From Candidatus Aegiribacteria sp. MLS_C (GTDB lineage Bacteria; Fermentibacterota; Fermentibacteria; Fermentibacterales; JCC-6): a stretch of 64,000 nt of DNA. The notes below the pieces were generated by a model. That model searched no databases. It had not been told where the DNA came from and was given only the letters and a program-made list of their open reading frames with translations. The first letter of the stretch is position 1; each line of letters begins with the position of its first letter. Below are positions 28,091 through 58,151 of the stretch, one piece after another. The position numbers were made by a program, and so were the translations under genes. The DNA is taken from the NCBI GenBank assembly GCA_002030045.1, contig LQBI01000002.1, positions 1 through 64,000 of the forward strand, read 5' to 3'.

Positions 28091-28948
28091 TCATGAGGAC
28101 CTAATAATCTCCAGAAGACGGTCAAGTTCATCGAGACTGGAATAGGTGATCTCTATCCTTCCCGAGCTTCCAGTTCCCCTAATCCTCACCCTGGTTTTCA
28201 GAATACGCTGAAGGGACTCCTGGAGCTGCCTGGTCTCGGGACTCTCACCAGGTTTAACTTTTCTTCGGGTCCCCCTTGGCGGCGAGTTCAGTTCCCTTAC
28301 TCGCTCCTCGAGCTGCCTCACCGAAAGACCCTTCCTGACCGCATTCACGGCAACACCCGCGATCCTCGTTCCATCGGCGAGGCCGAGAAGGGTCCTTCCG
28401 TGACCCATGCTGAGTTCACCGCTGCGCATCAGGTCAAGGACCTTCTCCGGAAGATCGAGCAGTCGAAGGAAGTTGGCAACCGTCGACCTGCTCATTCCGA
28501 CCCTCTCCCCGAGCTCCTCCTGAGTGAGACCGAATTGCGATGAGAGCATCATGAAAGCTTCCGCCTTCTCCACGGGTCCGAGATCCTTCCTCTGTATGTT
28601 CTCCACCAGGGCCAGGGCCAGCATCTGCTGATCGTCGGCCTCCCTCACCATGACCGGTACCGTCCTGAGACCGGCCTCCCGCGCCGCCCGAAGACGGCGT
28701 TCTCCCGCGATGAGCTGGTAGCCGGCCCCGCTGGTCCTAACGATCAGGGGCTGCAGTATCCCCTGAGACCTTATTGACACAGCAAGAGACGAGATCTCAT
28801 CTCGGTCCCATTCCTTTCTCGGCTGGAACGGGTTGGGTTCTATCTCGTCTATATGGACCTCGGTCACCACAAGAGATCCCTCTTCCGATATTCCGGGAAA
28901 TATCGCGTCTATCCCCCTGCCCAGGGCCTTCCTGTTTCTTTTAGTCAT
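28091..28948 (-). CDS. parB: Chromosome-partitioning protein ParB
   Basis: ParB is a CTPase clamp that loads at parS. The 285-aa product has the N-terminal GRGIDAIFP segment, the CTP-binding domain ([52 protein letters not shown]-like), and the central HTH ([39 protein letters not shown]). A C-terminal dimer domain ends in [15 protein letters not shown]. The ORF track runs to 29362 through a parA shadow; the start at 28948 overlaps the parA stop by ATGA. Two parS-like palindromes lie within 3 kb. Confidence 0.96.
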
Positions 28949-29706
28949 TTCTTCATAACCTCCCTGGCAAGGCTCAGATAACTCGTCGCTCCCTTGGACC
29001 TGGCATCGTAAAGAATCACCGGCATACCATAACTCGGTGCCTCGCTTAGTTTTACATTCCTTGGTATGTATGTCCTGTAAAGCTTCTGGCCCAGGAAACC
29101 CCTGACCTCCTCCTCCACGTCCCTGCTGAGTATAAGCCTCTGGTCGTACATGGTCAGTACAACACCGCTTATTACAAGGTCCCCATTCCAGAGCCTCTTG
29201 ACGTTCCTGACGGTGTCCATGAGATGTGAAAGACCCTCCAGTGCGTAGTACTCGCTCTGCAGTGTAACCATTACTTCCGTCGAAGCCACCAGCGCGTTTA
29301 TGGTGAGAAGACCCAGGGACGGGGGACAGTCTATGAGGACGAAATCGAACAGCCCGTGACACTGCTCAAGGGCTTCCTTCAGCACGTACTCACGGTACTC
29401 CGCCGTTGCCAGTTCTATCTCGAGACCCGAGAGTTCCCTCGACCCCGGAACTGTTTTCAGCCCCTCCACGGAGGTCTCTCTGGTCACCTGACCCACCGCC
29501 TGCCTGCCCAGGATGAGATCGCTCACCGTCGGGCCGGTCCTCCAGTCTATCCCCAGTCCCGATGTGGCGTTGACCTGGGGATCGAAGTCGACGAGCAGCA
29601 CCTCCCGGTCGTTCATGGCAAGACTGGCGCCGAGGTTGATGGCGGTTGTGGTCTTCCCCACACCGCCCTTCTGATTGGCGATAGCTATTACCCTGGTTCT
29701 CCTCAT
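28945..29706 (-). CDS. parA: Chromosome-partitioning ATPase ParA (Soj)
   Basis: ParA is the DNA-bound, ATP-dependent partner of ParB. Deviant Walker A is [17 protein letters not shown], with the signature lysine; the [33 protein letters not shown] and [15 protein letters not shown] motifs follow, and the tail has [17 protein letters not shown] start it at ATG 29706, preceded by AGGAAG, in place of 29748. The 253-aa length is usual for Soj. It is coupled to parB. Confidence 0.96.
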
Positions 29707-29813
29707 CGTCTTCCTAACCGGTTCAGCTTGCTTCAGAAGGCCGTGCACCCTGGTACGGCATCAGGCCGACGACCGGCCCTGTAAGGCATTTTACCACATT
29801 CCCCGGGCCGATG

Positions 29814-30455
29814 TCAGACCCGATACTGCACCAGAAACCCGCTGCGGTCAAGCGGCGGGACCTTCAATTCTACGATGCCGGAGACCCCCCGGCCTCTTCG
29901 TATCACCGGCTCCCTCACCACCAGTGTGGAACCTGGACCGGAAAGAGCTGCGATACTTCCGAGCATCTCCATTGCAGGGGCTACCGAACGGGCGGTGTAC
30001 TGGCACGGTGCCGGAGTCCCCTCAAGGTCTTCGAGTCTCCTTTTATCCACTGTGCTTCCTTCAAGGGAAAGCCGGTCCAGAACGAACCTGAGGAAAAGGT
30101 ATCGCTTTCTGCGTGGTTCCAGCATGATGACCTCGAAACCCATCGAGGCGAGCACGATCCCCGGAAACCCGTTTCCGGTGCCGATGTCCACGACCGGACC
30201 GGACCGATCCAGCAGCCGTGAATAGCAGAAGGACTCCAGTACGTGCCTGCTCCAGAGCCTGTCCCTCTCCCCGGGACCCATAAGGTTCACGACCGGTGAC
30301 CTTTCTACCAGCAGCCTGGTGAACTCGACGACCTTAAAGAGTTCGTCTTCGCGGACATTGACGGAGATCTCTTCAAGTTCTTTCAGCATCGATCCCAGCG
30401 GGGGAAGGTAGGGTGGCAGCTTCGGTTCGGAACGGTTCAGGTCCGGTTGTTCCAC
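29814..30455 (-). CDS. rsmG: 16S rRNA (guanine-527-N7) methyltransferase RsmG
   Basis: RsmG methylates G527 of 16S rRNA. The product contains VVNLMGPGERDRLWSRHVLES (compare the NLTS...RHILDS motif) and the SAM-binding VVDIGTGNGFPGIVLA, then MLEPRRKRYLFL. The start is uncertain. GTG at 30455 lies inside the parS palindrome and overlaps mnmG by 19 nt. ATG at 30390 (MLKELEE) fits the E. coli N-terminus as well but has only GGGA upstream. The 30584 start of the ORF track overlaps mnmG too far. Confidence 0.88.
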   Translation of the reverse strand: MEQPDLNRSEPKLPPYLPPLGSMLKELEEISVNVREDELFKVVEFTRLLVERSPVVNLMGPGERDRLWSRHVLESFCYSRLLDRSGPVVDIGTGNGFPGIVLASMGFEVIMLEPRRKRYLFLRFVLDRLSLEGSTVDKRRLEDLEGTPAPCQYTARSVAPAMEMLGSIAALSGPGSTLVVREPVIRRGRGVSGIVELKVPPLDRSGFLVQYRV

Positions 30456-32257
30456 GTGGAACACTTCCTGCCGAGGTGTATTATCAGGCCGTTTATGTCC
30501 GTGGGCCTCACGCCCGGCAGGTTCCTGGCCTGCTGAAGGGTTTCGGGCCTCCTCCTCTCCAGGACCTCCCTGGCTTCCCAGCATATTTCCTCGATGTCCA
30601 TGAACGAATCTATCGAACTCAGGGTGACCGATGACTCAGAACTTCTTTCCCTGTGCTTTCTCAGATTCCTCTGAATGTAGCCCTGGTATTTCTCGTCAAG
30701 TATCACGGATTCCGCAAGTGACAATTCGACCGAACCCTGGAGGCCAGAAGTCGAGAGGAGTTCCAAGGGGTTCAACTCTCCTCTTCTGCAGAGTATGCCG
30801 GCGGGAACCCCATCCATTGACGTTTCGTCAATTGCTGTTCTGATCCTGCCTGCTGCCTCGGTCCTTCCTTCAAGTACCTTTTTCTTCCCTTCCGATAGCA
30901 CTCCGGATCCCAGGGCCGCGGGAAGCATTCTCCTGTCAGCGTTGTCCTGTCTAAGGTAGAGCCTGTTCTCCGCCCTCGATGAGAACATCCTGTAGGGTTC
31001 GTCCACCCCTCTACCGATTATGTCGTCCACCATAACACCGATGTAGGAATCCATTCTCGACAGAACCAGTCCCTCCCGGTCAAGGCACTGCCTGGCGGCG
31101 TTGATTCCTGCCAGGACCCCCAGTCCTGCTGCCTCCTCGTATCCGGATGTACCGCAGACCTGTCCCGCCGCAAACAGGTTCTCGGTCCTCCTCAGCCTTA
31201 GTGTAGGAGCTATCTCCTCATGGCTTATGTAGGAATACTCGACAGCGTATCCGAACCTGTGTATCACAGCGTCGTGAAATCCCGGAAGTGTTCTGACCAT
31301 CCTGTACTGTGCTTCCCTCGGCAGGCTGCTCGAAAGGCCGTTAAGGTACAGCAACCTTGACCTGTAACCCATCGGCTCAACGTATATCCTGTGCTCTGCC
31401 CTTTCCGGGAACTTCACCACCTTGTCCTCGAAGCTCGGGCAGTACCTGGGTCCCTTGCCCTCTATTCTTCCCGCAAGCAGGGGTGACCTGTGCAGGAAGT
31501 CCTTCGCAGCCTCCGCTGTATCCCTGTTCGTATGAACTGTATAGAAGAACTCCCTTAGTTCAGATAGTCTGGACCCGCTGTAGCTGAACGAGAAGCCTAT
31601 CTCCTCTGAGGTCTCCTCCTCCATCGACCCTGTGTCAATGCTGTCCCTCAGTATTCTCGGTGGAGTCCCTGTCTTGAAACGTTCCACGTGGAACATCCTT
31701 CGTCTAAGGTCCTCGTCCAGCCGGTCCGCGGATATATCCCCTGTCCTCCCTCCCCTCCAGGTCTCTTCTCCCCTGAACAGCATGCCTCCCAGGAACGTCC
31801 CCGTTGCAAGCACAACAGCCCTGCCCTTCAGCGGTCCGTTCCTCCGGCATTGCACCCCTTCTATCCTCTCGGTCCTTCCTATGAGGCCGGTCACCTCGTC
31901 TTCTATTACCTCTACCGCTCCCGCCTCAAGTGTCCTCTGCTGGGCCCTTGCGTACATCATTGCATCCGACTGGACCCTTGGACCCCAGACCGCCGGTCCC
32001 TTCCTTCTGTTAAGCATCCTGAACTGAAGGCTTGTCTCATCAGCTGCCACTGCCATGGATCCGTCGAGAGCGTCAACTTCCCTGACAATAGTTCCTTTTG
32101 CTATTCCCCCGATCGCCGGGTTGCATGACATCTCTCCTATGCGTTCCTTCCGTGCAGTCACCATAACTGTCTTCATGCCCATTCGCGACGCTGCAAGCGC
32201 AGCCTCTATTCCCGCGTGACCTCCTCCTACCACTATCACGTCCACGCAGCGGCTCAT
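30437..32257 (-). CDS. mnmG: tRNA uridine-34 carboxymethylaminomethyl enzyme MnmG (GidA)
   Basis: MnmG, with MnmE, installs cmnm5U34 in tRNA and uses FAD. The protein starts SRCVDVIVVGGGHAGIEAALAA (FAD loop) and shows MSCNPAIGGIAKGTIVREVDALDG, ATGTFLGG, RFKTGTPPRI, YCPSFEDKVVKF and the AEYSYISHEEIAPTLR-type stretch. Length 606 aa is normal. The start at 32257 overlaps the mnmE stop (ATGA); the ORF track's 32269 start is four codons too long. Two parS-type palindromes lie in its coding sequence. Confidence 0.95.
   Translation of the reverse strand: MSRCVDVIVVGGGHAGIEAALAASRMGMKTVMVTARKERIGEMSCNPAIGGIAKGTIVREVDALDGSMAVAADETSLQFRMLNRRKGPAVWGPRVQSDAMMYARAQQRTLEAGAVEVIEDEVTGLIGRTERIEGVQCRRNGPLKGRAVVLATGTFLGGMLFRGEETWRGGRTGDISADRLDEDLRRRMFHVERFKTGTPPRILRDSIDTGSMEEETSEEIGFSFSYSGSRLSELREFFYTVHTNRDTAEAAKDFLHRSPLLAGRIEGKGPRYCPSFEDKVVKFPERAEHRIYVEPMGYRSRLLYLNGLSSSLPREAQYRMVRTLPGFHDAVIHRFGYAVEYSYISHEEIAPTLRLRRTENLFAAGQVCGTSGYEEAAGLGVLAGINAARQCLDREGLVLSRMDSYIGVMVDDIIGRGVDEPYRMFSSRAENRLYLRQDNADRRMLPAALGSGVLSEGKKKVLEGRTEAAGRIRTAIDETSMDGVPAGILCRRGELNPLELLSTSGLQGSVELSLAESVILDEKYQGYIQRNLRKHRERSSESSVTLSSIDSFMDIEEICWEAREVLERRRPETLQQARNLPGVRPTDINGLIIHLGRKCSTWNNRT
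30448..30463. promoter_or_regulatory. parS centromere-like site 1
   Basis: TGTTCCACGTGGAACA is a perfect 16-bp palindrome at the mnmG 3' end/rsmG start. It matches the general parS form (TGTTTCACGTGAAACA) with the TCC/GGA variant seen in other phyla. It lies about 1.5 kb from parB. Confidence 0.88.
31680..31695. promoter_or_regulatory. parS centromere-like site 2
   Basis: CGTTCCACGTGGAACA lies within mnmG and differs from site 1 only at the outermost base. Confidence 0.82.
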
Positions 32258-36057: not shown

Positions 36058-36382
36058 TCCGGATCACTCATTTCATTTTTGTGGTCACCTTGACGAAGGC
36101 GGGATTACTGCATCAGTATCAACAGTCGAGCAAACAGTTCTCTCACGAGCCGGCGATTGTGGAAATTAGCCAATATGCCCAATTATGTCAAGTATTTGCG
36201 TTCAGGTCACGGTGGGCATCCAGTGTTTTCAACACTGTTGACAACGGACTGTGTGAATCTATATGCAAGTCTTTATCGTTCAATTATTAATAGTGTGAAT
36301 ACTGTGTGGATACAGCTGTGGAGAAGGTATTCTTTTCAATGAGGATTACATATTTAGGAACACAGATCCGATTGGAAGCCTG
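36058..36382. other. rpmH-dnaA intergenic region, candidate oriC with DnaA boxes
   Basis: Boxes one or two bases from TGTGGATAA occur at 36294-36302 (TGTGAATAC), 36305-36313 (TGTGGATAC) and 36317-36325 (TGTGGAGAA), next to CAATTATTAATAG. A perfect hairpin CAGTGTT-TTC-AACACTG (36221-36237) stands just upstream of the dnaA promoter. Gene orientation flips here. Confidence 0.65.
36238..36265 (+). promoter_or_regulatory. dnaA promoter
   Basis: TTGACA (36238-36243), 16-nt spacer, TATATG (36260-36265). The spacer holds TGTGTGAAT and the leader holds further DnaA-box-like sites, so autoregulation by DnaA is likely. Confidence 0.65.
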
Positions 36383-37726: not shown

Positions 37727-37949
37727 ACCTTCCGACCAGCTTTTCCTCCTGTGCAAAACTCCCCTGGAACTGTGTCGTAAACTCGTCTCTGTCGATAAGT
37801 GCCGTTTCACTAACGGGTGTCCAGAAATTTTCCCACAGCCTATGTCGTGACGCCCCATTACTGCATGTGACATGTCCACATATTCACATGTATAATAACT
37901 ATCATAATTGTTCTCATAATACTGTATTCATGGAGCTGGAGGAAATCCC
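37727..37949. other. dnaA-dnaN intergenic region, possible unwinding element
   Basis: After a GC-balanced half that contains TTTTCCCACA, an AT-rich run (37885-37930) includes TATAATAAC and CATAATTGTTC. CATGTG and CACATG form an inverted repeat around TGTCCACAT, which resembles a DnaA box. This may be the second half of the origin. Confidence 0.45.
37867..37896 (+). promoter_or_regulatory. dnaN promoter
   Basis: GTGACA (37867-37872), 18-nt spacer, consensus TATAAT (37891-37896), 53 nt upstream of the dnaN ATG. Confidence 0.55.
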
Positions 37950-43912: not shown

Positions 43913-46900
43913 GTGCGCCCGCCCGAGGTAGGCAAGGGTTTCAGCCTTCCGGGGAAGAGGTCGGAGGACATCATCGTCTCGCCTGAGATCAGGGGAATAG
44001 TGATGTCGATAACCCTTTTCTACGATGTATGGAACGATGCGGGGGATTCCCTTGCCACGCTGCTCTCCACGATAAGGTACATTGACGCCGAGAAGCTTCT
44101 TGACAACCTGTCCAACATGATAACGCCGCCTCCTGTTATGGAGGATTCGGCGGTCAAGTGGTTCAATGCGCTCACGGACCTCCCTTCCGAAGCAGTGGTT
44201 CTAGCAGTGCAGGAGTTCTTCCATCTGTCCTGGGTCTGGAACCAGATAGGTCCATCCACCGGTCTCGTTTTCGACGACCTTATCGCGCTGCTGTACAAAG
44301 TGTTCCAGGTGATATCCGAGAACCCGGCCGACCTCCAGATGATCGAAAGCCTGATACAGAAGGGGATCAAGTGGCCCGAGCGCTTCCCGTTCATGCTGGA
44401 ACGTTGCCGCATCGGCGGAGCGAACGTGATCAGGGCTCTTGAAAGGGCGGCCGAGATAATGATGTACTCGGAGCCCGGAGTTCATGAAGTCCTGATAGAT
44501 TTCGCCCTCGAGACAGGATGGTACCTCCTGTCCAGGGATGATCTGCCGGTATGGAGGTCCATAGGCAGGAGCGGAGAGTCCCTGTACAGGAAGATGAGGG
44601 GATTCACCATACCCATGGAGTCCATAAGGGCGCTGGCGGGTTTCCTCGGCCGCATGGAGGAGTCGGAGGAGCTGCAGCACCTCCTCGACGACGCCATGAG
44701 GATGGTGGTGAACGATGTGACCGGCACGGTACCGGAGAGCGAGATGGCTCCAGTGCTGGAAAGTCTCTCCCCCCAGGCGACCAAGGCCCTCAGGAGAAGG
44801 GCCGAGAGGAACATATGCCTGGACATGATCAGCCTCAAGGTATCGGAGAGCGGCTCTCCGTTCGAGTACGGGAAGGCCGTCGCCGACATGATACTTTTCA
44901 CCGGCGCCGGGACTGCTTTCTACAACTGCTTCCGGGAAGCATACGGCATTCTCAGGAACGAGGATGACAACGAGAAGGTCCTCCTTGTGGCCAGGCTGGC
45001 CCAGGAGAGGAGCGGAGTAGATTACCTAAGCAGCAGGAAGACCGAGTTCTTTATGGACTTCGTACCGGTTGCGCTGCTGTTCCTGGAGAACAAGACAAAC
45101 CCTGCCGAGATGCGCAGGGTGGTGAACTCAATCGGGCGGCTCATGGATTCCGTACTGAACCAGGACGAACCCGAGTCCCTCATAGCCGAGCTGCGAAGGT
45201 ATCTGACGGAATTCGACATAGACCGGGACAAGCTCCTGACTTCCCTCATACTCCTCATCAGGGCATCCAGGGGGATACCCTTCCAGGAGATACTGGACAA
45301 GAGCGATGTCTTCGCAGGAATACTCGAACTTCTTGATTTCGACTACCGAAGAAGACTTCTGGAGGGTGAGCAGACGGACTGGCTGACACCCCTGGTGGAG
45401 GATTCCATAGGATCCGCCAGGGTTGTGCTCGGAACCCTTCAGAAGATAGGCAGGGAAGATCTGAGGGGAAGGTTCATGGACAAGGTGATGGCCCCCCTCC
45501 TTCAGGAGACCGACACCGACGATCCCGTGTTCACGGAACTCATATCCAGCGGCGTGGCGACCTACAACAGGGACATGAGCATAGAGCAGCTGAGGAAGGA
45601 GGAGACGGCCCTTCTCGGGAAGCTCTTCAGGGCCGAGGACAGGAGCAAGGCCCTCAAGCAGACCATGGAGAACCTCCTCAGGATTCCCGGTATAGAGGAG
45701 AGGAACGCCACCGACCTTATCCATGCCGCGAGGATGCTGTGCGAGACACTGTCACAGCAGGCGGTCTGGATAGAGAAGACCGGGCACAGGATATTCAGCA
45801 AGTTCCTGTCCTACGGATTGACGGCCTTCGTGAAGACACTTGTGGAATACCCCGACATAGCCGAGAGGATCACAGGCGGTTTCATGAGGGGCGTCATCGA
45901 CACCATTATCCCCTCAAAGGAGACGGAGGAGAGCGATGTCGCCCTCTGGCAGCTGAAGACCGCCTCGATGTTCTTCGGCAAGATAATCCCCCTGACGGTA
46001 GAATTGAACGCCGACGATCCCGGCATCATAACCGGATACCTCTCGGAGCTGTCTGAACTCACCGTTTCTTCCAAGCAGGGGGAACCTGCGGGCGCCGCCT
46101 TCCTCTCCTGGATGTCCCACAGGCTGGAATCCGAGCTGCTTGACGAGTTCGCGCGAAAGCTCGGCGAAGAGAGCCCATACCGGGGCTTCGACGAACATTT
46201 CAACGCCCAGAGGCTCATGGAGATATGGAGAAAGCTCAGGGACGGCTCATCGGACATCATGAACGAAATGATGGAATCCGTTCAGCTCATCACAACCTCC
46301 CCGCTATACAGGCAGATACTTCTTCGAGAGGGGAGAAAGCTCATAGAGGGCTTCATCGAGAACGGATGCCGAGAAGTCATCACCAGCGGGGCCGACAGGG
46401 GATCGAAGGAGGACATTGAGGAATTCAGCAGGGTAACCGAGGGCCAGGACCCGGTCGATATCATCAGGATGATGGAGAACCCGGCCGAGGGCAAAGAAAA
46501 GGAAGTCCTTCCCCCGTCGGTCAGGGGATTCTTCGAACAGCAGCCATGCCCGCCCGGGCAGAACGTGTGCAGGTGCTGGAGGAACAGGGTCTTCAGCACG
46601 TTCGAGAACATCCTGATAGACATACTGCTCCTCAGCTCGGACAAGAGGAACCTGGAACAGATCGAACTGATGATAGACGATTTCGTCCAGATCATAGGAT
46701 ACCTGGGGACGGATGCCGACTTCAAGCCGGAGATAGTGCTCACCGCGCTGGAGAAATCCCTATCGCGGACCGAGGCCGGGAGACCTATTACCGTGGATGC
46801 GGCGATGAAGAACCTGGACAGGAACGTATACAAGCTCATGTGGCTTCGAAAAGCCACCCGGAAAGCCGCGGAAGCAGTATCCGGATACATTCCGGGAAGG

Positions 46901-47503
46901 AAGATCTCCATTCGGTTGTTCGACAGGATATCAAGGGAGGAATCGGCAAAGGAGCAGATACTGTTCATGATGAACTTCGGCCGTATCTTCGCAGCTCTGG
47001 AAGCCGAGATAATGAAGAGGAAGCCTACAGAGATAAAGTCCGTCCGTACAGCCCTGGACCATATCTGGGTCTTCAATCCCGAGGTGGTCAGACCCATCTC
47101 TTCAGTTGACACCGCAAGGGATGCGGTTGAGACCGTGACACAGTTCTTCCTCGAGATGGGCACCAGGACCGGAGCCGTCACCGCCGCCGAGGCCGGCGCG
47201 ATAAGCCTGGGCATGCGCCGTAAGTACAGGGACAACGCCAACACCGTCGCAATCCTGCTGAAGTGGACACAGGACAGCACCAGATCGGACCTTCTCTCTC
47301 TCGTCGAAGCCCACCAGCTCTTGCTTGAGGCCGTCAGCAGGGACAGCGAACTCATACAGATGATCGATACCCTCTGGAGCAACGGCAAGGCCAGGCTCTA
47401 CATCAGGTCACTGGCCGACAGGCCCGACAAGCTCAAGAAGAGTCTCGAGAAGTTCATCGGAACCTCGGGACTCGGCGGCAATGACGGACTGCAGTTCGTC
47501 TGA
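43913..47503 (+). CDS. Large helical protein of unknown function next to gyrA
   Basis: The 1,196-aa ORF has no family I can name. The sequence is soluble, with regular amphipathic helices throughout, like HEAT or ARM-type repeats, and no signal peptide or membrane segment. The only compact motif is a cysteine group near residue 878 (CPPGQNVCRCW), which might bind a metal. The start is uncertain: GTG 43913 is possible, but the in-frame sequence [19 protein letters not shown] upstream looks coding and begins with an ATA that overlaps the gyrA stop. The 3' end overlaps the asparaginase gene by 23 nt, so the three genes are probably co-transcribed. Confidence 0.8.
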   Translation: MRPPEVGKGFSLPGKRSEDIIVSPEIRGIVMSITLFYDVWNDAGDSLATLLSTIRYIDAEKLLDNLSNMITPPPVMEDSAVKWFNALTDLPSEAVVLAVQEFFHLSWVWNQIGPSTGLVFDDLIALLYKVFQVISENPADLQMIESLIQKGIKWPERFPFMLERCRIGGANVIRALERAAEIMMYSEPGVHEVLIDFALETGWYLLSRDDLPVWRSIGRSGESLYRKMRGFTIPMESIRALAGFLGRMEESEELQHLLDDAMRMVVNDVTGTVPESEMAPVLESLSPQATKALRRRAERNICLDMISLKVSESGSPFEYGKAVADMILFTGAGTAFYNCFREAYGILRNEDDNEKVLLVARLAQERSGVDYLSSRKTEFFMDFVPVALLFLENKTNPAEMRRVVNSIGRLMDSVLNQDEPESLIAELRRYLTEFDIDRDKLLTSLILLIRASRGIPFQEILDKSDVFAGILELLDFDYRRRLLEGEQTDWLTPLVEDSIGSARVVLGTLQKIGREDLRGRFMDKVMAPLLQETDTDDPVFTELISSGVATYNRDMSIEQLRKEETALLGKLFRAEDRSKALKQTMENLLRIPGIEERNATDLIHAARMLCETLSQQAVWIEKTGHRIFSKFLSYGLTAFVKTLVEYPDIAERITGGFMRGVIDTIIPSKETEESDVALWQLKTASMFFGKIIPLTVELNADDPGIITGYLSELSELTVSSKQGEPAGAAFLSWMSHRLESELLDEFARKLGEESPYRGFDEHFNAQRLMEIWRKLRDGSSDIMNEMMESVQLITTSPLYRQILLREGRKLIEGFIENGCREVITSGADRGSKEDIEEFSRVTEGQDPVDIIRMMENPAEGKEKEVLPPSVRGFFEQQPCPPGQNVCRCWRNRVFSTFENILIDILLLSSDKRNLEQIELMIDDFVQIIGYLGTDADFKPEIVLTALEKSLSRTEAGRPITVDAAMKNLDRNVYKLMWLRKATRKAAEAVSGYIPGRKISIRLFDRISREESAKEQILFMMNFGRIFAALEAEIMKRKPTEIKSVRTALDHIWVFNPEVVRPISSVDTARDAVETVTQFFLEMGTRTGAVTAAEAGAISLGMRRKYRDNANTVAILLKWTQDSTRSDLLSLVEAHQLLLEAVSRDSELIQMIDTLWSNGKARLYIRSLADRPDKLKKSLEKFIGTSGLGGNDGLQFV

Positions 47504-48978: not shown

Positions 48979-49335
48979 ATGACCAAGAACGAATCGACGG
49001 CGAAGATGGATTCCATCCTGGGTTCCGGGAGCTTCTGCAAGGGGTCCATCAAGGTGGATGGAGGGTTGAGGATCGACGGGACCGTTGACGGCGAGGTCGT
49101 TGTCTCTGGAACCCTCACCGTAGGCCGTGAGGGCGTCATCACCGGTGACGTCACCGTCAACCAGGCCGTTATCGGAGGAAGAATACAGGGCACTGTCAGG
49201 GCCGAGCAGCAGATGGAGCTTCACAGCGGGTCCCGTGTCGAGGGTGATATATTCACCCGCTCACTGATCATAGAGGACGGAGTCTTCTTCGAGGGGAACT
49301 GCAAGATGAGCCGTGGCAACGAGTCAGAAGGCTGA
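48979..49335 (+). CDS. Bactofilin cytoskeletal protein
   Basis: Bactofilins form filaments that place cell-wall enzymes. The 118-aa protein has the beta-helix repeat pattern: SFCKGSIKVDGGLRIDGTVDGEVVVSGTLTVGREGVITGDVTVNQAVIGGRIQGTVRAEQQMELHSGSRVEGDI, typical DUF583. The ORF track starts at 48673 in a shadow frame; ATG 48979 follows GAGGAG at 7 nt. The upstream coiled-coil protein is a probable partner. Confidence 0.93.
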   Translation: MTKNESTAKMDSILGSGSFCKGSIKVDGGLRIDGTVDGEVVVSGTLTVGREGVITGDVTVNQAVIGGRIQGTVRAEQQMELHSGSRVEGDIFTRSLIIEDGVFFEGNCKMSRGNESEG

Positions 49336-49535
49336 AGTCGAATGTGGATAATTCGCCGAAACTGTGGACAACTAGCTAACTTATTATTAGACAGTAATAT
49401 ACGGAATCACTTAAAGTAGCTTCATAAGTAATATCCACAACAGACTCTTTTATGGAGGCATAGCCTGAGTCAGGCATTTCACCTGTCTTTTCGGGCATTG
49501 CCGCTCCCTTAGAATCTTCGAAAGGCTGGTGCCGA
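49336..49535. other. AT-rich gap with DnaA-box-like sites before the V-ATPase operon
   Basis: TGTGGATAA (49343-49351) is a perfect reverse DnaA box. TGTGGACAA (49363-49371) and ATATCCACA (49431-49439) each differ by one base. The stretch between them is unusually AT-rich for this genome. A palindrome GCCTGAGTCAGGC lies at 49463-49475, closer to the V-ATPase genes. Confidence 0.6.
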
Positions 49536-49853
49536 ATGACCAAACTGGGGCAGCTCCGGGAGGCGGAGGAAAAGGCTCAGCAGGAAATCGACCGTGCCGA
49601 GAAGGAGGCTCACAGGATAAGGATGTCGATCCCGGACCTTATGGAAGAGCAGACCCGGAGGTACAGGGACAGGCTTGAGGAGCTGGAACGGAGCGGGGAG
49701 CAGGAGGTCGCCGGTAGAATAGAGGAGCTTTCCCGCAACCTCGAGAAGGAAACGGAGTCGAGGCTGAAGGAACTGTCGTCACACGGGATGGATCTGGAGT
49801 CGGCGGCCGAGGAGCGTCTTCGCGGCATCATACTGGACAGCGGGAAAAAATGA
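49536..49853 (+). CDS. V-type ATPase subunit H/G-like peripheral-stalk protein
   Basis: The 105-aa product is an almost continuous coiled coil (LREAEEKAQQEIDRAEKEAHRI..., RLEELERSGEQEVAGRIEELSRNLEKETE), as in archaeal AhaH/NtpF stalk subunits. It pairs with subunit E to form the peripheral stalk. It is the first gene of the H-I-K-E-C-F-A-B-D operon and overlaps the subunit I start by 4 nt. Identity rests mainly on position and coiled-coil pattern. Confidence 0.8.
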   Translation: MTKLGQLREAEEKAQQEIDRAEKEAHRIRMSIPDLMEEQTRRYRDRLEELERSGEQEVAGRIEELSRNLEKETESRLKELSSHGMDLESAAEERLRGIILDSGKK

Positions 49854-51907
49854 GCCTCGACCCGGTTTCAAAGATCGAGGTCGTCTGTCATTCCAGCGCG
49901 AGGGACAGCCTGGTAGCTGCGCTGGAAGCTTTCGGAAGGGTACATCTTCTCGACCTGTCGGAGGAACAGGTCTATACGGACGAAGAAGGCGAGGACCTGT
50001 CGAAGCACCTCAAACCCTCCCGTATCAGCACTGAATCACTTGCGGAGGACATCTCAAGCCTGAACAGAGCCGTAAAGTTTCTTATAGAGGAAGCCTCGGA
50101 AGAGATGGAGATACCTTCGGAGACTTCGGCCGTCACCGAGGCGGAACTGATGGAACTCCTCGCGGACAGGACGCTCATCGAGAACGCCAGGAGGGCATGG
50201 ATCGTTGCCGTACAGAAGGCGAAGCTGGAGGGCGCGGAGAATGAGCTGCTCCAGGAGGAGCAGTTCCTTTTCGAGTGGAGGAATATCCCGTTGCCCCTGC
50301 AGGAACTCCGCAGGGAAGGCTCCTTCACCATCAGCGCCGGCACCCTCCCATCGGAGTCGATGGACTGGATCGGGAAATTCCAGGAGGAAAACCCCCTGGT
50401 CCACGTTGAGGGGATCGACAGCGACAGGAGCACGGCGAGGGTCATCGTGGTCATCCACAGGGATGCCGATGAGAGCGCGTTCCAGTCATTGACGGAGGCG
50501 GGTTACACGGCCCAGGACTTCGGTTCGAGGACGGGAACAGTAACCGAGTGCATGGGCGAGGTGCGCAGGGAACTCGAGATGATCCGCTCGAGAACAAGGG
50601 CCATTCACGCAAGGGCACTGAAGTACGCCGGAATCCTTGAAAGCTTCAGGAAGCTGCTTGACGCCGCATCACTGGTCCTCGAGCGTATGAGGGCAGCCAA
50701 TTCATCCGTATCCACTTCAAGCATCCACATCTTCAGGGCGTGGATAAGGACCGGGGACCTGGAAGAGATCCGCCGCAGACTTGGCGGCATAGGCGAGGTC
50801 GACGTTGAGACGATAGAGCCCGAGGAAGGGGAGGTGCCTCCTTCTCCACTGACGGAGAAGCCGGTGGCGGAACCCTACAGGATGCTCACCGACATGTACG
50901 GCCAGCCCACCCGGAAGGATCCGGACCCGACCCCGCTCATGGCTCCCTTCTACGCACTCTTCTTCGGGATCTGCATCGGCGACGCCGGCTACGGCGCCGC
51001 CCTGGCCGCAGGGGCCGCCGCCGGATGGTACATGGTCAAAAAACGTCACGGCAACACCAGGCTGTTCAAGCTCCTTTTCCAGGGAGGCCTTGCGAGCATA
51101 CTTGTGGGAGTCTTCCTGGGGGGCTGGTTCGGAATGCCCCTGGAGGACCTGCCGGGATTCCTCAGAGCGCCGGCGGACATGCTCAATGCGCTTGTACCGG
51201 GGTATAGCCGCGGACAGTCCGGCCAGGGCGGCTTCGCTGTATCCAAACAGTTCCTGTACGTGACACTTGCCCTGGGTCTCCTGCAGCTGACCGCGGGAAT
51301 AGTGGTCAATCTCGTGAAACGCCTGAGGTCGGGAGAGGGTATCTCTGCGGTGATAGACCAGTCGGGATGGCTGCTTGCAACTGCCGGGCTCTTTCCATGG
51401 CTGTTCAACCGGTATCTGCTGGAGGGGGGCCTTTACGAAGCCGAGGGACCGCTCGATACCGTATTCATGATAATGCTCGCCCTGGGAGCGGTACTTATAT
51501 TCGTGATGGGCGGCAGGGAAGCCAGGGGATTCGGAAAGGTGGGACTCGGCGCGTATGCCACCTACGGAATAGTGAACCTCCTGGGTGACGTTCTCTCGTA
51601 CTCGAGGCTTTTCGCGCTTGCCCTTTCCAGCGCAATCATCGCCCAGGTCATCAACCAGATGGCCGGAATGCTGATGGAACAGCTGGGCATACCGGTTGTA
51701 GGACTGCTGCTGGCCACTGTGGTAGTCGTGGCTGGACATGCCTTCAACCTGGCGATGGCGGCTCTCAGCGGCTTCATTCATACTGCCAGACTCCAGTTCG
51801 TGGAGTTCTTCGGCAAGTTCTACGACGGGACCGGAGTCCCATTCAGGCCACTGAGGTACCAGCCGAAGTACGTGCACATCGAACGGAATAATCAACAGGC
51901 TCCGTAG
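49850..51907 (+). CDS. atpI: V-type ATPase subunit I (membrane a-like subunit)
   Basis: Subunit I holds the ion half-channels. The 685-aa protein has a cytosolic N-terminal half (to ~350) rich in coiled coil, then PFYALFFGICIGDAGYGAALAAGAAAGWY, the recognisable first membrane helix, followed by about seven more helices. LGDVLSYSRLFALALSSAIIAQVINQMAG contains the conserved SYSRL arginine that faces the rotor. The end, LQFVEFFGKFYDGTGVPFRPLRY, is diagnostic. Confidence 0.95.
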   Translation: MSLDPVSKIEVVCHSSARDSLVAALEAFGRVHLLDLSEEQVYTDEEGEDLSKHLKPSRISTESLAEDISSLNRAVKFLIEEASEEMEIPSETSAVTEAELMELLADRTLIENARRAWIVAVQKAKLEGAENELLQEEQFLFEWRNIPLPLQELRREGSFTISAGTLPSESMDWIGKFQEENPLVHVEGIDSDRSTARVIVVIHRDADESAFQSLTEAGYTAQDFGSRTGTVTECMGEVRRELEMIRSRTRAIHARALKYAGILESFRKLLDAASLVLERMRAANSSVSTSSIHIFRAWIRTGDLEEIRRRLGGIGEVDVETIEPEEGEVPPSPLTEKPVAEPYRMLTDMYGQPTRKDPDPTPLMAPFYALFFGICIGDAGYGAALAAGAAAGWYMVKKRHGNTRLFKLLFQGGLASILVGVFLGGWFGMPLEDLPGFLRAPADMLNALVPGYSRGQSGQGGFAVSKQFLYVTLALGLLQLTAGIVVNLVKRLRSGEGISAVIDQSGWLLATAGLFPWLFNRYLLEGGLYEAEGPLDTVFMIMLALGAVLIFVMGGREARGFGKVGLGAYATYGIVNLLGDVLSYSRLFALALSSAIIAQVINQMAGMLMEQLGIPVVGLLLATVVVVAGHAFNLAMAALSGFIHTARLQFVEFFGKFYDGTGVPFRPLRYQPKYVHIERNNQQAP

Positions 51908-51927
51908 GGGAGTGAAGGGAGTACCAA

Positions 51928-52377
51928 TTGGAACAGCTCGTTGCATACATGGGAATAGCCCTTGCCTGTGCCCTTGCAGGCATAGGTTCCGCAGTGGGGG
52001 TCGGAATAGCGGCCCAGGCAAGCACGGGGGTCATGAGCGTGGATCCCGGGAAGTTCGGGAAACTCCTGCTCCTGTCGGCCCTGCCGGGGACCCAGGGTAT
52101 CTACGGGTTCGTCATAGCCTTCCTCCTTCTCGGGAAGGTGACGCCGGGAATGGACATGAACGCTGCATGGCAGATATTCACCGCCGGCATTCCCATAGCT
52201 CTTGCAGGACTGCTTTCGGGAATACACCAGGGGAAGGTCTGTGCCGGAGGCGCAATGATGACGGCCAAGCAGCCCGCCGACTCGGCAAAATCCCTCATAC
52301 TGGCCGTATTTGTCGAGTTCTATGCTATCCTGGGCTTCCTCGTATCATTCCTGATGCTCCAGGGAATAGGCGGGTAA
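51928..52377 (+). CDS. atpK: V-type ATPase subunit K (rotor ring), Na+-type pattern
   Basis: Subunit K is a duplicated c-type proteolipid with four membrane helices. The residues that bind sodium in Enterococcus hirae NtpK appear to be present: L52, T55 and Q56 in LPGTQG, Q101 in IHQGK, and the carboxylate E130 in VEFYAIL. Only one glutamate occurs per duplicated unit. This points to a sodium-translocating ATPase. TTG start at 51928 with AGGGAG 7 nt upstream. Confidence 0.93.
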   Translation: MEQLVAYMGIALACALAGIGSAVGVGIAAQASTGVMSVDPGKFGKLLLLSALPGTQGIYGFVIAFLLLGKVTPGMDMNAAWQIFTAGIPIALAGLLSGIHQGKVCAGGAMMTAKQPADSAKSLILAVFVEFYAILGFLVSFLMLQGIGG

Positions 52378-52384
52378 AGGCGAG

Positions 52385-52972
52385 ATGTCACTTGAAGCCA
52401 TCCTCTCCAGGATCGGAAAGGACGCGGAGGAGAAGTCCGGGTCCATAGTGACCGCCGCGGAGGAGGAGAAGGAGAATGTCCTCCGTGAGCACCGGGAGAA
52501 ACTGGAGGAGGAGTTCGCAAGGCACGCGGAGAGACTCCGCTCCAGAATGGACGAATCCGGGCGGCGCAGGGAGTTCCATGTGAGGCGCGAGGCCTACAGG
52601 AAGCTGCTGAACGAGAGAAGAGCCATGATAGACCGTGCCGTGGAACGGGCGGTGGAGGTCCTTGCCGCTTCCGACGATTCCGTATACCTGGCCATGATAT
52701 CGTCCCTCCTCGAGGGATGCGACCTGAAGGGCGAGGTAGAGGTGCTGATCTCAGAAGCAGACAAGTCCAGAATAACACCTTCGTTCCTTGAGAAGCATTC
52801 CGGTCCCGACAGGAGATTCGTGCTCTCCCCGCTCCATCACGACGCCAGGGGAGGCGTCATCTTCAGGTCGGGGGACATAAGCCAGAACGGAACTTTCCCG
52901 ATGATAGCGGAACTTTCCCACGAGAAGCTGGTGATGGAACTCTCGGGACTGGTCCCAATGGAGAAGAACTGA
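52385..52972 (+). CDS. atpE: V-type ATPase subunit E (peripheral stalk)
   Basis: The 195-aa protein has an N-terminal long helix (LEAILSRIGKDAEEKSGSIVTAAEEEKENVLREHREKLEEEF) that packs against the H/G stalk protein, and a C-terminal globular domain ending in SGDISQNGTFPMIAELSHEKLVMELSG. Position and shape fit subunit E of V/A-type ATPases. The start is 8 nt after subunit K. Confidence 0.88.
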   Translation: MSLEAILSRIGKDAEEKSGSIVTAAEEEKENVLREHREKLEEEFARHAERLRSRMDESGRRREFHVRREAYRKLLNERRAMIDRAVERAVEVLAASDDSVYLAMISSLLEGCDLKGEVEVLISEADKSRITPSFLEKHSGPDRRFVLSPLHHDARGGVIFRSGDISQNGTFPMIAELSHEKLVMELSGLVPMEKN

Positions 52973-52975
52973 CCC

Positions 52976-53953
52976 ATGAAGAATGGATTCATCTACGCCA
53001 ACGGCAGGATAAGCGGGGAGGAGAAGACCCTTCTGGACCAGAGGATGTGGCAGATGCTGCTGGCGGCCGGTGACTCTGAAGAGGCGCTGAGGCTCCTTGG
53101 TGACACCTGGTACGGCACATTCATGCAGTACCATTCCATGGACGAGAGCTTCTTACGGGCCATGGAGGTGACGGAGGAAGAACTCATCGAACTCTCGGAG
53201 GACGAGAGGCTGGTCCGGGGGATCCTTCACAGGAGGGATGTCAGGAACGCCAGATACCTGTGGAAGTCCGCACTCTTCCTCGACAAAGGGTCCGCCGGGG
53301 GGGTCGAGGTCGAGAGGCCGGGACTGCTGGGAATAGACATCCTGAACAGGTCCGTGGCAAGCGATGAGGCCAGGGACGAGCTGCCGCCACTCTTCCTTTC
53401 GGCTCTGGAGGACGTTACGGCACTGGACCCGGGGGACACTGCCGGGTTCGACATGAGAATGGACAGGCTGGCGGCAGAGGTGGAGACGAAGGAACTCACG
53501 GACATCAATCCCGGGTTCAGGAACTTCGTCACGACCCACCTGGAGCAGCGCAACTTCCTCACCGCCGGAAGGTGTCACGTGGACGGCGTACCCCGCCAGG
53601 AGATGTCGGAGATGCTGCTGCCCGGAGGGTTCCACGATCCGGAGGAGATCGCCGGCGCATACCAGAGGGGGTCGCTTCGCGACCTGATGGCCGAGACTCC
53701 CGGTTTCGAGGATATGGCGGCCGCCCTTGGCGAAGCCCTGGAGGAAGGTTCCTTCCTCAGGTACGAGAAGGAGTGCGACGCCAGGCTCCTGGAGCTCCTT
53801 CAGAAGGGGGCCTTTCCCGTGTTCGGTCCATCACCGCTCGCCGCATTCGTGATACGGAGGGAGATGGAGATGAACCACCTGAGGATCCTGCTGGCGGCCA
53901 AGGCGGCCGGCGTCCCGCAGTCCAGGCTCAGGAAGAGATTGCCCAGGGGATAG
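52976..53953 (+). CDS. atpC: V-type ATPase subunit C (rotor socket, NtpC/d type)
   Basis: The 325-aa subunit forms the funnel joining the central stalk to the K ring. It is all-helical with pairs of motifs such as WKSALFLDKGSAGG and the C-terminal GPSPLAAFVIRREMEMNHLRILLAAKAAGV, which is a hallmark of this family. It follows subunit E by 4 nt and precedes F by 11 nt. Confidence 0.93.
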   Translation: MKNGFIYANGRISGEEKTLLDQRMWQMLLAAGDSEEALRLLGDTWYGTFMQYHSMDESFLRAMEVTEEELIELSEDERLVRGILHRRDVRNARYLWKSALFLDKGSAGGVEVERPGLLGIDILNRSVASDEARDELPPLFLSALEDVTALDPGDTAGFDMRMDRLAAEVETKELTDINPGFRNFVTTHLEQRNFLTAGRCHVDGVPRQEMSEMLLPGGFHDPEEIAGAYQRGSLRDLMAETPGFEDMAAALGEALEEGSFLRYEKECDARLLELLQKGAFPVFGPSPLAAFVIRREMEMNHLRILLAAKAAGVPQSRLRKRLPRG

Positions 53954-53963
53954 GAGGACCGAC

Positions 53964-54293
53964 GTGGCTCAGGGCAGGGTAGCATTCATAGGAGACGCCG
54001 ATTCCGTTCTGGGTTTCAGGGCCCTGGGCGTTGAGACCATTGTCCCGTCCGAGAGCGAAGGGGCCGAAGAAGCCTTCGACAGGCTGGTGCGGGAGGGGGT
54101 ATCGGTCATAATGATAACCGAGGACCTCATGGACGAGCTTCAGGAGAAGATAGACGGAACCGTTCACATGGCGGTCCCGTCGGTGGTGGTCCTTCCCGGC
54201 ATAAGGGGTACCGGCAGACGCGGGGAGCAGACCATAAGGGAACTCATCATAAGGGCCGTGGGAGTGGACCTCATGTCAGAGGAGCCGCGGTAG
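53964..54293 (+). CDS. atpF: V-type ATPase subunit F (central stalk)
   Basis: The 109-aa protein has the Rossmann-like F-subunit pattern: VAFIGDADSVLGFRALGVETI, a middle SVIMITEDLMDELQEKID and VPSVVVLPGI. It binds subunit D and can regulate ATP hydrolysis. Start GTG at 53964 with AGGAGG 6 nt upstream. Confidence 0.93.
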   Translation: MAQGRVAFIGDADSVLGFRALGVETIVPSESEGAEEAFDRLVREGVSVIMITEDLMDELQEKIDGTVHMAVPSVVVLPGIRGTGRRGEQTIRELIIRAVGVDLMSEEPR

Positions 54294-54337
54294 AAAAGAA
54301 GACCGGTTTTGGTCCGCAGAACACCGGAGGCGACTGA

Positions 54338-56107
54338 ATGATCAAGGGAACGATAGACAAGATAGCGGGTCCGCTGGTTGTCGCGGACGGAATGAAGGAG
54401 GCCAGGATGTACGACCTGGTCTACGTATCCGACTATGGCCTGATCGGCGAGATAATCGAACTCAAGGGGGAAAAGGCCTCGATACAGGTATACGAGGAGA
54501 CCGGTGGCCTGAAACCCGGCGACCCGGTGACAGCCACGGGAAAGCCGCTTTCGGTCGAACTGGGACCCGGACTGGTGACAGCCATCTACGACGGCATCCA
54601 GCGGCCGCTGGACGAGATACGCGAGCAGGCCGGGGACTGGATAACCAGGGGTATAAGCATACGCGGCCTGGATCATGAGAAACTGTGGGACTGGAACCCC
54701 GTCGCCGAACCCGGTCTCGAGGTCGGCGGAGGAGAGGTTCTCGGAGAGGTCCCGGAGACGAAGCTGATAACCCACAGGGTGATGGTCCCGCCGGACGTGA
54801 AGGGAACCCTTACCTGGGTGAAGGAGGCCGGGAGCTGCAACATAGATACCGTTGTGGCGAAGGTGAATGACGGCGAAGGCGTCGAGGTCCAGCTGAAGAT
54901 GTACCACAACTGGCCGGTGAGGAAGCCGAGGCCGGTGGCGGAGAAGAGGGCTCCGGAGGAACCCCTGATAACCGGACAGAGGGTGGTGGACGCCTTCTTC
55001 CCGCTGGGCAAGGGCGGGACGGCCTGCGTCCCCGGGCCCTTCGGCAGCGGCAAGACGGTGATACAGCACCAGCTGGCCAAGTGGGCCGACGCGGAGATAG
55101 TGGTATACGTGGGATGCGGAGAACGCGGCAACGAGATGACCGACGTGCTGCAGGAGTTCCCCGAGCTGGAGGACCCAAAGAGCGGAGAGCCTCTCATCCT
55201 CAGGACCGTCCTGGTGGCCAACACAAGCAACATGCCTGTGGCCGCCCGGGAAGCCAGCGTCTACACGGGCATCACCATCGGAGAGTACTTCCGCGACATG
55301 GGCTACTCGGTGGCGCTCATGGCCGATTCGACCAGCAGGTGGGCCGAGGCCATGAGGGAGATGTCCGGAAGGCTCGAGGAGATGCCCGGCGAGGAGGGCT
55401 ACCCGGCGTATCTCGGAACCAGGATAGCCGAATTCTACGAGAGGGCCGGCAACGTGCTCTGCAGGGGCGGTGACCGCAGCGGAGCCCTGACCGTGGTGGG
55501 TGCCGTTAGTCCCGCCGGAGGCGACCTTTCCGATCCGGTAGTCCAGGCGACCCTGAGGGTGGTCAAGGTCTTCTGGAGCCTCCAGGCCAAGCTGGCCTAT
55601 GCAAGGCATTTTCCCGCCATAGGCTGGCTGGAGAGCTACTCTCTCTACACGGACAACCTCAGGGAGTACTACGACGAGAACCTCGGGGAGGGATGGGTCT
55701 CGATGATGAAGGAGGCCATATCCCTGCTTCAGCAGGAAGCCAACCTCCAGGAGATCGCCAGGCTGGTGGGCGCCGAGTCGCTCTCCCCCGAGGACCAGCT
55801 GATCCTTTACACATCCAGGTCCCTGAGGGAGGATTTCCTCCATCAGAACGCCTTCCACGAGGTGGACACATACGCCTCCATAGGCAAGCAGAAGGTCATG
55901 ATGGAGGTCATCATGAACACCCACGAGGAGATGAGGAAAGCCATAAGGAGCGGAGTCCCGCCAAGGGAGCTGTTCGACCTGCCGCTCAAGGAGGAGATAA
56001 CCAGGATGAGGTACATTCCCGAGGACGAGATAGGATCCATCGAGGCCATAAAGGGATCGGTCACCTCCCAGGTCAGCAGAGTCATAGAGAGCGAACAGAC
56101 CGCTTAG
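54338..56107 (+). CDS. atpA: V-type ATPase catalytic subunit A
   Basis: The catalytic subunit hydrolyses or makes ATP. The 589-aa product has the N-terminal barrel ([28 protein letters not shown]), the bulge domain ([14 protein letters not shown]), the P-loop [36 protein letters not shown], the Walker B region [35 protein letters not shown] and the helical C-terminus. All functional residues look intact. It follows a 44-nt gap after subunit F. Confidence 0.97.
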
Positions 56108-56118
56108 GAGGCGGGGAG

Positions 56119-57522
56119 ATGATCAGAGAATACACTACGACGGTTGAGATTTCCGGTCCCCTGATGCTGGTTGACAGGGTCGAGGGTGTGGCCTACGAGG
56201 AGCTGGTGGAGATAGAGCTGCCCGGAGGAGAGATCCGGCATGGCAAGGTGCTGGAGGTGGACAGCAGGATGGCCCTGGTCCAGCTCTTCGAGGGCAGCAG
56301 CGGCACGGACATCACCGAGAGCAGGGTTCGCTTCCTCGGCAAACAGGTCGAGCTCGGAGTCTCCGAGGAGATGCTGGGAAGGGTCTTCGACGGCCAGGGA
56401 AGGCCCAGGGCTCCCTTCGACACCGCCCCTCCCGTTGTGCCGGAGAGAATGGAGAACATAAACGGCGCCCCCATCAACCCCTACGCTCGGGATTACCCCG
56501 CCGAGTTCATACAGACGGGCTTCAGTTCCATAGACGGCATCAATACACTGGTCAGGGGGCAGAAACTGCCGGTGTTCAGCGGCAACGGACTGCCCCACGC
56601 GGCCGTGGCCGCCCAGATAGCCAGGCAGGCCCGGGTCCTGGGCGAGGGAGAGAGCTTTGCAGTGGTGTTCGCGGCCATGGGAATAACCTTCGAGGAGGCG
56701 GACTACTTCATCCGCGACTTCAGGAAGACCGGAGCAATGGACAGGGCTGTGGTCTTCATGAACCTGGCGGACGACCCGGCCATCGAGAGGATATCCACTC
56801 CCAGGATGGCGCTTACCGCCGCCGAGTACCTCGCATACGAGAAGGACATGCACATACTGGTCATCCTCACCGACATGACCAACTACTGCGACGCCCTGAG
56901 AGAGATCTCCGCGGCCCGCAAGGAGGTCCCGGGCAGACGGGGATATCCCGGTTATCTCTATACAGACCTGTCCACCATCTACGAGAGGGCCGGCAGAATA
57001 AAGGGCAGGAAGGGGTCCATCACGCAGATCCCGATACTCACCATGCCCGAGGACGACAAGACGCATCCTATCCCGGACCTCACCGGCTACATCACCGAGG
57101 GACAGCTGATACTGAACAGGGAACTCCACAAAAAGGGCGTCTACCCGCCCATGGACGTGATGGAGTCCCTCTCCAGGCTCAAGGACAAGGGCATCGGAAA
57201 GGGCAAGACCAGGGAGGACCACGCCGACCTTTTCAACCAGCTCATGGCGGCGTACTCCGCCGGCAAGGACGCAAGGGAGCTGGCTGTGATACTTGGGGCG
57301 GCGGCCCTCAGCGAGATCGACCAGAAGTACCTCAGGTTCGCGGACGAGTACGAGAGGAGGTACATCAGCCAGGGAGGACATGAGAACCGCAACATAGACG
57401 AGACCCTGGACCTCGGCTGGGAACTGCTGAAACTCCTTCCCAGGAACGAGATGAAGAGGATAGACCCGAAGAGACTGGACAAGTACTGGCCCGTGAAGGG
57501 CGGCGGGGAAGGGGACGACTGA
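56119..57522 (+). CDS. atpB: V-type ATPase subunit B
   Basis: The non-catalytic partner of A. The 467-aa protein starts [37 protein letters not shown] and has [41 protein letters not shown], where the P-loop is degenerate as expected, and [26 protein letters not shown]. The ORF track starts at 55693 inside atpA. ATG 56119 comes 11 nt after the atpA stop behind GGCGGGGAG. Overlaps subunit D by one base. Confidence 0.97.
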
Positions 57523-58151
57523 TGGCCATAGTCGTCAGCGCCACCCGCATGGAGCTGCTCAACCTTCGAAAGAAGGCCAAACTGGCCAGGAAGGGCCACA
57601 AGCTCCTGAAGGACAAGCTGGACGAGCTGATGAGGCAGTTCAAGATACTCATCTCCGAGTACGAGGGGGCCAGGCAGGAACTGGAGAGAGAACTGCAGGA
57701 AGCCTACGGGGAGTTCCTCTTCGCCAGGGCGGCAATGACGGAACCCGGCCTGCTGGACGCCCTCAGGTACCCGGGGGCCGAGGCGAAGGTGGAGACCGGG
57801 ACCAGGAAGATAATGAATCTGGTGCTCCCGGTCTTCGGGGTGTCCATCGAGGGCAGGGTGAGGAACTACGGTGTCTTCGACACCCCCGCCGAGCTGGACG
57901 AGGCGCTCAGGGTCTACAGTGAACTGCTCCCGAAGATCATCAAGCTGGCCGAGCAGGAGAAGGCCATAAGCCTGCTGGCCAGAGAGATAGATACAACCAG
58001 GCGCAGGGTCAACGCCCTGGAGTACAAGCTGATACCCGAGCTGGAGGAAGCCATCCGCGCCATAAGGCTGAAGCTGGAGGAGATGGAGCGTGGCAATCTC
58101 ACCAGGCTGATGAAGGTCAAGGAGATGGTGGAGGCAAAGCGTGGCATCTGA
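57522..58151 (+). CDS. atpD: V-type ATPase subunit D (central shaft)
   Basis: The 209-aa product is a long antiparallel coiled coil. The start TRMELLNLRKKAKLARKGHKLLKDKLDELMRQF is the classic D-subunit N-terminus, and the C-terminal helix contains TTRRRVNALEYKLIPELEEAIRAI, also diagnostic. With F it forms the rotating shaft inside the A3B3 head. It is the last gene of the operon. Confidence 0.96.
   Translation: MAIVVSATRMELLNLRKKAKLARKGHKLLKDKLDELMRQFKILISEYEGARQELERELQEAYGEFLFARAAMTEPGLLDALRYPGAEAKVETGTRKIMNLVLPVFGVSIEGRVRNYGVFDTPAELDEALRVYSELLPKIIKLAEQEKAISLLAREIDTTRRRVNALEYKLIPELEEAIRAIRLKLEEMERGNLTRLMKVKEMVEAKRGI

Follow-up and report, generated by a model that had tools for sequence, protein, structure and literature searches.

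A conserved DnaA-box element ahead of the V-type ATPase operon in Fermentibacterota, probably distinct from the replication origin

DnaA boxes between a bactofilin gene and the V-type ATPase operon

The DNA analysed here, referred to as the window, comprises bases 1-64000 of a 264,695-bp contig (C2) from a draft genome of 2.98 Mb. The genes of interest run in the order rnpA, a gap, dnaA, a gap, dnaN, dciA, gyrB, gyrA, the gene of a 1196-aa protein, an asparaginase gene, the gene of a small protein, a bactofilin gene, the element described below and the V-ATPase operon (Table 1). The 1196-aa protein encoded after gyrA (43913-47503) has no Pfam or NCBIfam match, and the tRNA-Ser placed by ARAGORN on the opposite strand inside its gene (45987-46082) is probably false. 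Besides, two parS-like palindromes, TGTTCCACGTGGAACA and CGTTCCACGTGGAACA, are located within mnmG at 30448-30463 and 31680-31695, where 0.13 would be expected by chance, and a parA gene (28945-29748) lies near both of them.

The element is situated in the 200-bp gap that separates the bactofilin stop (49335) from the V-ATPase operon, whose first gene starts at 49536; it lies 11.6 kb from the stop and 13.0 kb from the start of dnaA. A sequence-only reading of the window had described one perfect and two one-mismatch DnaA boxes around an AT-rich stretch in this gap, 12 kb from dnaA, and this description is borne out in all its parts, with boxes C and D enclosing 59 bp of 29% G+C. That reading had overlooked the 26-bp block adjoining box D, which is the strongest feature of the locus and almost invariant in the genus, and it was not in a position to see the boxes flanking dnaA, namely those at 36305 and 36317 upstream of the gene and a number of degenerate boxes in the dnaA-dnaN gap.

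Chance is a poor explanation for such a cluster, as three boxes of at most one mismatch within 100 bp were found in 0 of 400 Markov-simulated 64-kb windows, and shuffling the intergenic DNA 20,000 times gave three such boxes at all just once; the whole genome holds 342 boxes of this quality. The sequences preceding the V-ATPase I gene in relatives were collected, and R1, a model of the element built on sequence alone, gives a single match when this genome is scanned up to E = 10; no other copy of the block or of the element was found in the genome. The DnaA protein carries the signature GRDHSTV and would thus be expected to bind ordinary boxes.

An RNA leader or riboswitch was also sought in the element, and this reading was dropped since nothing in Rfam matched at E values up to 1 and there were neither consensus nor conserved base pairs. 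A sigma-70 promoter within the block was given up as well, because inspection of the element and the block by tool and by eye in several families revealed nothing consistent; the one weak sigma-70 consensus match in the element is built on non-conserved bases.

Table 1. Positions of the element, its parts and the neighbouring features in the window
Feature	Position	Strand	Remarks
DnaA box pair GTATCCACA, TTCTCCACA, upstream of dnaA	36305..36325	-	12 bp apart, starts 36305 and 36317; kept in the genus
dnaA	36383..37726	+	domain IV bears the DnaA signature GRDHSTV
Probable oriC, dnaA-dnaN gap	37727..37949	+	five boxes (up to 2 mismatches), several degenerate
Bactofilin gene	48979..49335	+	Pfam PF04519; constant upstream neighbour, relatives included
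Whole element, ~110 bp	49340..49442	+	match to model R1, 78 bits
DnaA box B, TTATCCACA	49343..49351	-	perfect match; starts 8 bp past the bactofilin stop; aligned in 41 elements
DnaA box C, TTGTCCACA	49363..49371	-	one mismatch; 20 bp from box B
Variable spacer, AT-rich in this genome	49372..49404	.	phylum-wide, length fixed within 1 bp, sequence not
Conserved 26-bp block, AATCACTTAAAGTAGCTTCATAAGTA	49405..49430	+	adjoins box D; candidate partner site or promoter part
DnaA box D, ATATCCACA	49431..49439	+	one mismatch; opposite orientation to B and C; C-D distance 68 bp
Small coiled-coil gene, first of the V-ATPase operon	49536..49853	+	stator G/H-like by position; no family at cut-off
V-type ATPase operon: subunits I, K, E, C, F, A, B, D	49850..58151	+	

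Conservation of the element across Fermentibacterota

R1 matches 40 of the 42 genomes of the phylum, among them all 24 high-quality ones, and the two genomes without a match are 61% and 79% complete. Every genome with a match has one copy, with the sole exception of the bin G001, whose contamination is 7% and whose extra matches comprise one on a near-duplicate contig and one that is partial. All loci whose context was read have the element at the bactofilin/V-ATPase junction, and the same-genus relatives with enough contig all carry the boxes at identical spacing. An additional minus-strand box, 9 bp upstream of 49343, is present in most relatives and has been lost in this genome. In the 41 aligned copies, the spacing between boxes B and C is 20 bp without exception (41/41), and that between C and D is 68 or 69 bp. 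Conservation of the boxes in relatives, which had been set beforehand as a check, therefore holds throughout the phylum and at fixed spacing.

Within the genus, the mean pairwise identity reaches 0.957 for the block, 0.966 for box D, 0.927 for box B and 0.918 for box C, compared with 0.561 for the spacer and 0.469 for the third codon positions of the V-ATPase genes. The G+C content of the spacer ranges from 14% to 54% across the phylum. That the boxes and the block are far more conserved than either the spacer or the third positions argues for selection on a rigid DNA element, and judging from the alignments it is very probably a selected DnaA-binding element. We also considered whether another regulator binds here and the resemblance to DnaA boxes is coincidental or secondary, which would suit the fact that, boxes aside, invariance is highest in a block that is not a DnaA site. 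However, the box letters drift among TTATCCACA, TTTTCCACA, ATATCCACA and TTTTCAACA, the same variants occur at the dnaA-flanking boxes of the same genomes, and three to four such boxes are very hard to obtain by chance, so that we regard this explanation as highly unlikely.

The distance between dnaA and the element is 12-14 kb in every Fermentibacterota contig that contains both. Breaks of synteny within the phylum thus failed as a means of telling whether the element goes with dnaA, as this distance is kept throughout.

The dnaA region and the site of the origin

The sequence-only reading had named the real origin, a titration site for DnaA and a promoter under DnaA control as candidate roles of the cluster, and the first of these is disfavoured by the origin signature found between dnaA and dnaN. 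According to the rule for the basal unwinding system, a DnaA box is followed by at least three DnaA-trios within 16 bp (PMC8287927). Runs of 4 to 8 trios after a box were detected in the dnaA-dnaN gap of 13 of 17 genomes, this one included, with a run of 8 trios after ATATTCACA (37880-37888) in the window, whereas by the same rule the element has no trios in 12 of the 17 genomes, again including this one, and at most 3 in the rest. The least stable 50-mer of the window likewise starts at 37880, in the dnaA-dnaN gap. From the unwinding signature and this 50-mer together we conclude, with considerable confidence, that the element is not the main origin. It does resemble an oriC with a basal unwinding system in having a DnaA-box cluster beyond chance beside DNA that is AT-rich in this genome, but a trio run of at least four is missing and the AT-richness is not conserved in relatives, where the spacer reaches 54% G+C. 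On the other hand, its facing boxes surround the second least stable DNA of the window, the spacer, and its conservation equals or exceeds that of the dnaA-dnaN region. Taking these points together with the evidence from strand composition and from a second phylum given below, we consider it improbable that replication truly starts at the element or that the element forms a second or auxiliary component of the origin.

GC skew, which the sequence-only reading had suggested as a check, is a weak guide here. The plain cumulative skew has its minimum near 37 kb, by dnaA and not at the element, but this minimum coincides with a change of gene strand. The third-position skew pooled over eight genomes apparently switches at dnaA, whereas fourfold sites, which are less affected by amino-acid use than third positions, exhibit in 17 genomes a weak and mostly flat strand bias without a clean switch at dnaA or at the element. 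Where the bias is clearest (G017, G005, and G004), fourfold sites make the genes from dnaA to the element look leading-strand, which speaks against an origin at the element. Owing to the confounding by gene strand and the lack of a clean switch at fourfold sites, skew was dropped as the deciding test, and it supports an origin at dnaA only mildly.

Several further features of the dnaA region were recorded. In the genus g5, there are no boxes upstream of dnaA, and the degenerate boxes between dnaA and dnaN are kept. A promoter-like sequence of dnaN (GTGACA, 18 bp, TATAAT) overlaps with the trio run and the final two DnaA boxes within a conserved stretch at 37867-37910, and given this overlap origin opening and dnaN transcription may compete. 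In 16 of 17 genomes, dnaA itself has more C than G at fourfold sites, with a pooled skew of -0.37, and differs in this from the surrounding genes. In addition, a second DnaA-like protein of the AAA+ type is encoded beside a 230-aa protein (L188, G000:C24:251200-254200); it measures ~509 aa, has a long tail that is not of DnaA type, and matches related to it occur in many relatives. Three perfect DnaA boxes at ~20-bp spacing were observed in L185 and L190 (G001:C40), in the bin with 7% contamination, and this triple box is possibly another organism's origin.

Boxes at the same junction in a second phylum, and the probable role of the element

A second phylum, represented by 17 genomes, has the order parA, parB, a peptidase-like gene, bactofilin and V-ATPase in several of them. 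DnaA boxes at the bactofilin/V-ATPase junction exceed nearly all shuffles in 4/4 genomes read of family f6 and in at least two genomes (G057 and G056) of family f15, and none were found at this junction in families f14 and f16. Three of the f6 genomes have a box whose end lies a few bases upstream of the ribosome-binding site that serves the first V-ATPase gene. Wherever both were found in a second-phylum genome, dnaA lies on a contig other than that of the V-ATPase junction, which indicates that the element goes with the V-ATPase genes and not with dnaA. Since several families lack them, the boxes of the two phyla may have arisen twice, although they may also share a common descent.

One member of this phylum, G032, displays on its contig C24 (L207+L093+L208) a sign change of the GC skew at ~23.4 kb, at the junction and with parA-parB adjoining, within a stretch from ~8 to 28 kb whose genes are all on one strand. 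The change could be chance or an origin signal. Together with parAB it had suggested the junction cluster as the origin of that phylum, and it is also the point from this phylum that would speak for an origin at the element in Fermentibacterota. Both ideas are weakened, because several second-phylum genomes have dnaN after dnaA with a trio-bearing gap between them, a textbook unwinding signature shown by TTATCCACAGAATCCACAGAACTACTACTACTACTA after dnaA in G066, and because the skew change is weak and not clearly repeated in relatives.

DnaA would bind the boxes, and as these point inward over a stretch of fixed length and their spacing is so rigid, we infer that one defined DnaA complex forms, with a second protein possibly sitting on the 26-bp block. 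This complex may control transcription of the V-ATPase operon just downstream, a step less certain than the binding, and pump expression would then track the amount or the nucleotide state of DnaA. Local control of the operon is favoured by the fact that the element tracks it, by the f6 boxes just before the ribosome-binding site and by the position of the boxes upstream of this transcription unit in both phyla. Against it stand the lack of a convincing sigma-70 promoter and the fact that datA and DARS share a rigid multi-box geometry. Control of the V-ATPase operon as the output of the element is hence proposed tentatively on the basis of gene order and box arrangement.

The main rival, nearly as likely in our view and itself a less than probable reading, is a sink or switching site for DnaA like datA, DARS or the B. 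subtilis clusters, which would be copied soon after initiation and then remove DnaA or alter its nucleotide state, so that re-initiation does not occur. Several good boxes at fixed spacing around a conserved extra site, a single non-coding copy and a distance of 12-14 kb to dnaA and oriC, seen on every Fermentibacterota contig that has both, would suit such a role, and origin-proximal boxes suit titration (PMC12371093). Moreover, datA depends on two DnaA boxes flanking an IHF site at critical spacing (PMC4585315). The boxes described here also flank a conserved site, the block, at a spacing fixed to 1 bp, but no fit to the IHF consensus WATCAANNNNTTR was recognised in the block by eye. Three or four boxes are also few against the 342 genome-wide boxes of at most one mismatch. 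Above all, in the second phylum the boxes keep to the V-ATPase genes and dnaA is located on another contig, and a pure sink would need no such partner, which tips the balance to control of the neighbouring genes over titration.

Comparison with these and other systems reveals partial likeness in each case. Like datA of E. coli, the element is a non-coding group of boxes that lies away from oriC and flanks an additional conserved site; it measures ~110 bp as opposed to ~1 kb for datA and is V-ATPase-linked and phylum-wide. A fixed arrangement of three DnaA boxes forms the core of DARS1 and of DARS2 (PMC4585315), and the element, compared by arrangement, has three to four boxes at fixed positions; in contrast to DARS, it contains no recognisable Fis or IHF sites and lies 12-14 kb from oriC, whereas the DARS loci are far from it. 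In B. subtilis, six DnaA-box clusters outside oriC jointly hold back initiation (PMC5295017), and the likeness consists in a cluster outside the origin, while here there is one cluster of rigid geometry that is found phylum-wide. In DnaA-regulated promoters of the mioC type, a gene or operon near the origin is directly preceded by several boxes (PMC4585315). The element likewise has boxes upstream of an operon near the origin, yet no promoter was recognised in it and the target would be a V-type ATPase operon.

Weighing all of this, we consider a conserved extra-origin DnaA element, possibly exerting local control of the V-ATPase operon, to be the best explanation of the locus as a whole, although our confidence in it falls a little short of even. 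In a more far-reaching version, put forward as a rather doubtful speculation, a DnaA element older than the phylum would couple the replication initiator to expression of the V-type ATPase and thereby to the ion-motive energy of the cell, and would have remained beside the V-ATPase genes while in the other phylum its distance from dnaA and oriC shifted.

Control loci with DnaA boxes outside the origin have been described in a handful of model bacteria, examples being datA, DARS and the B. subtilis clusters. In a small literature search, we found no paper linking DnaA boxes, a V-type ATPase and intergenic DNA, and no phylum-wide, single-copy DnaA-box locus attached to V-ATPase genes with spacing fixed to the base pair. 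The element would belong to this known kind of locus. For origin-finding programs it carries a warning, as it could be mistaken for oriC in these genomes, and its compact size of ~110 bp makes it a target for direct DnaA binding and reporter tests. A single-copy element present across this uncultured phylum, together with clusters found at the corresponding junction of a second one, suggests that such loci can be old, and the two phyla further suggest that DnaA-box loci can be tied to particular neighbouring genes.
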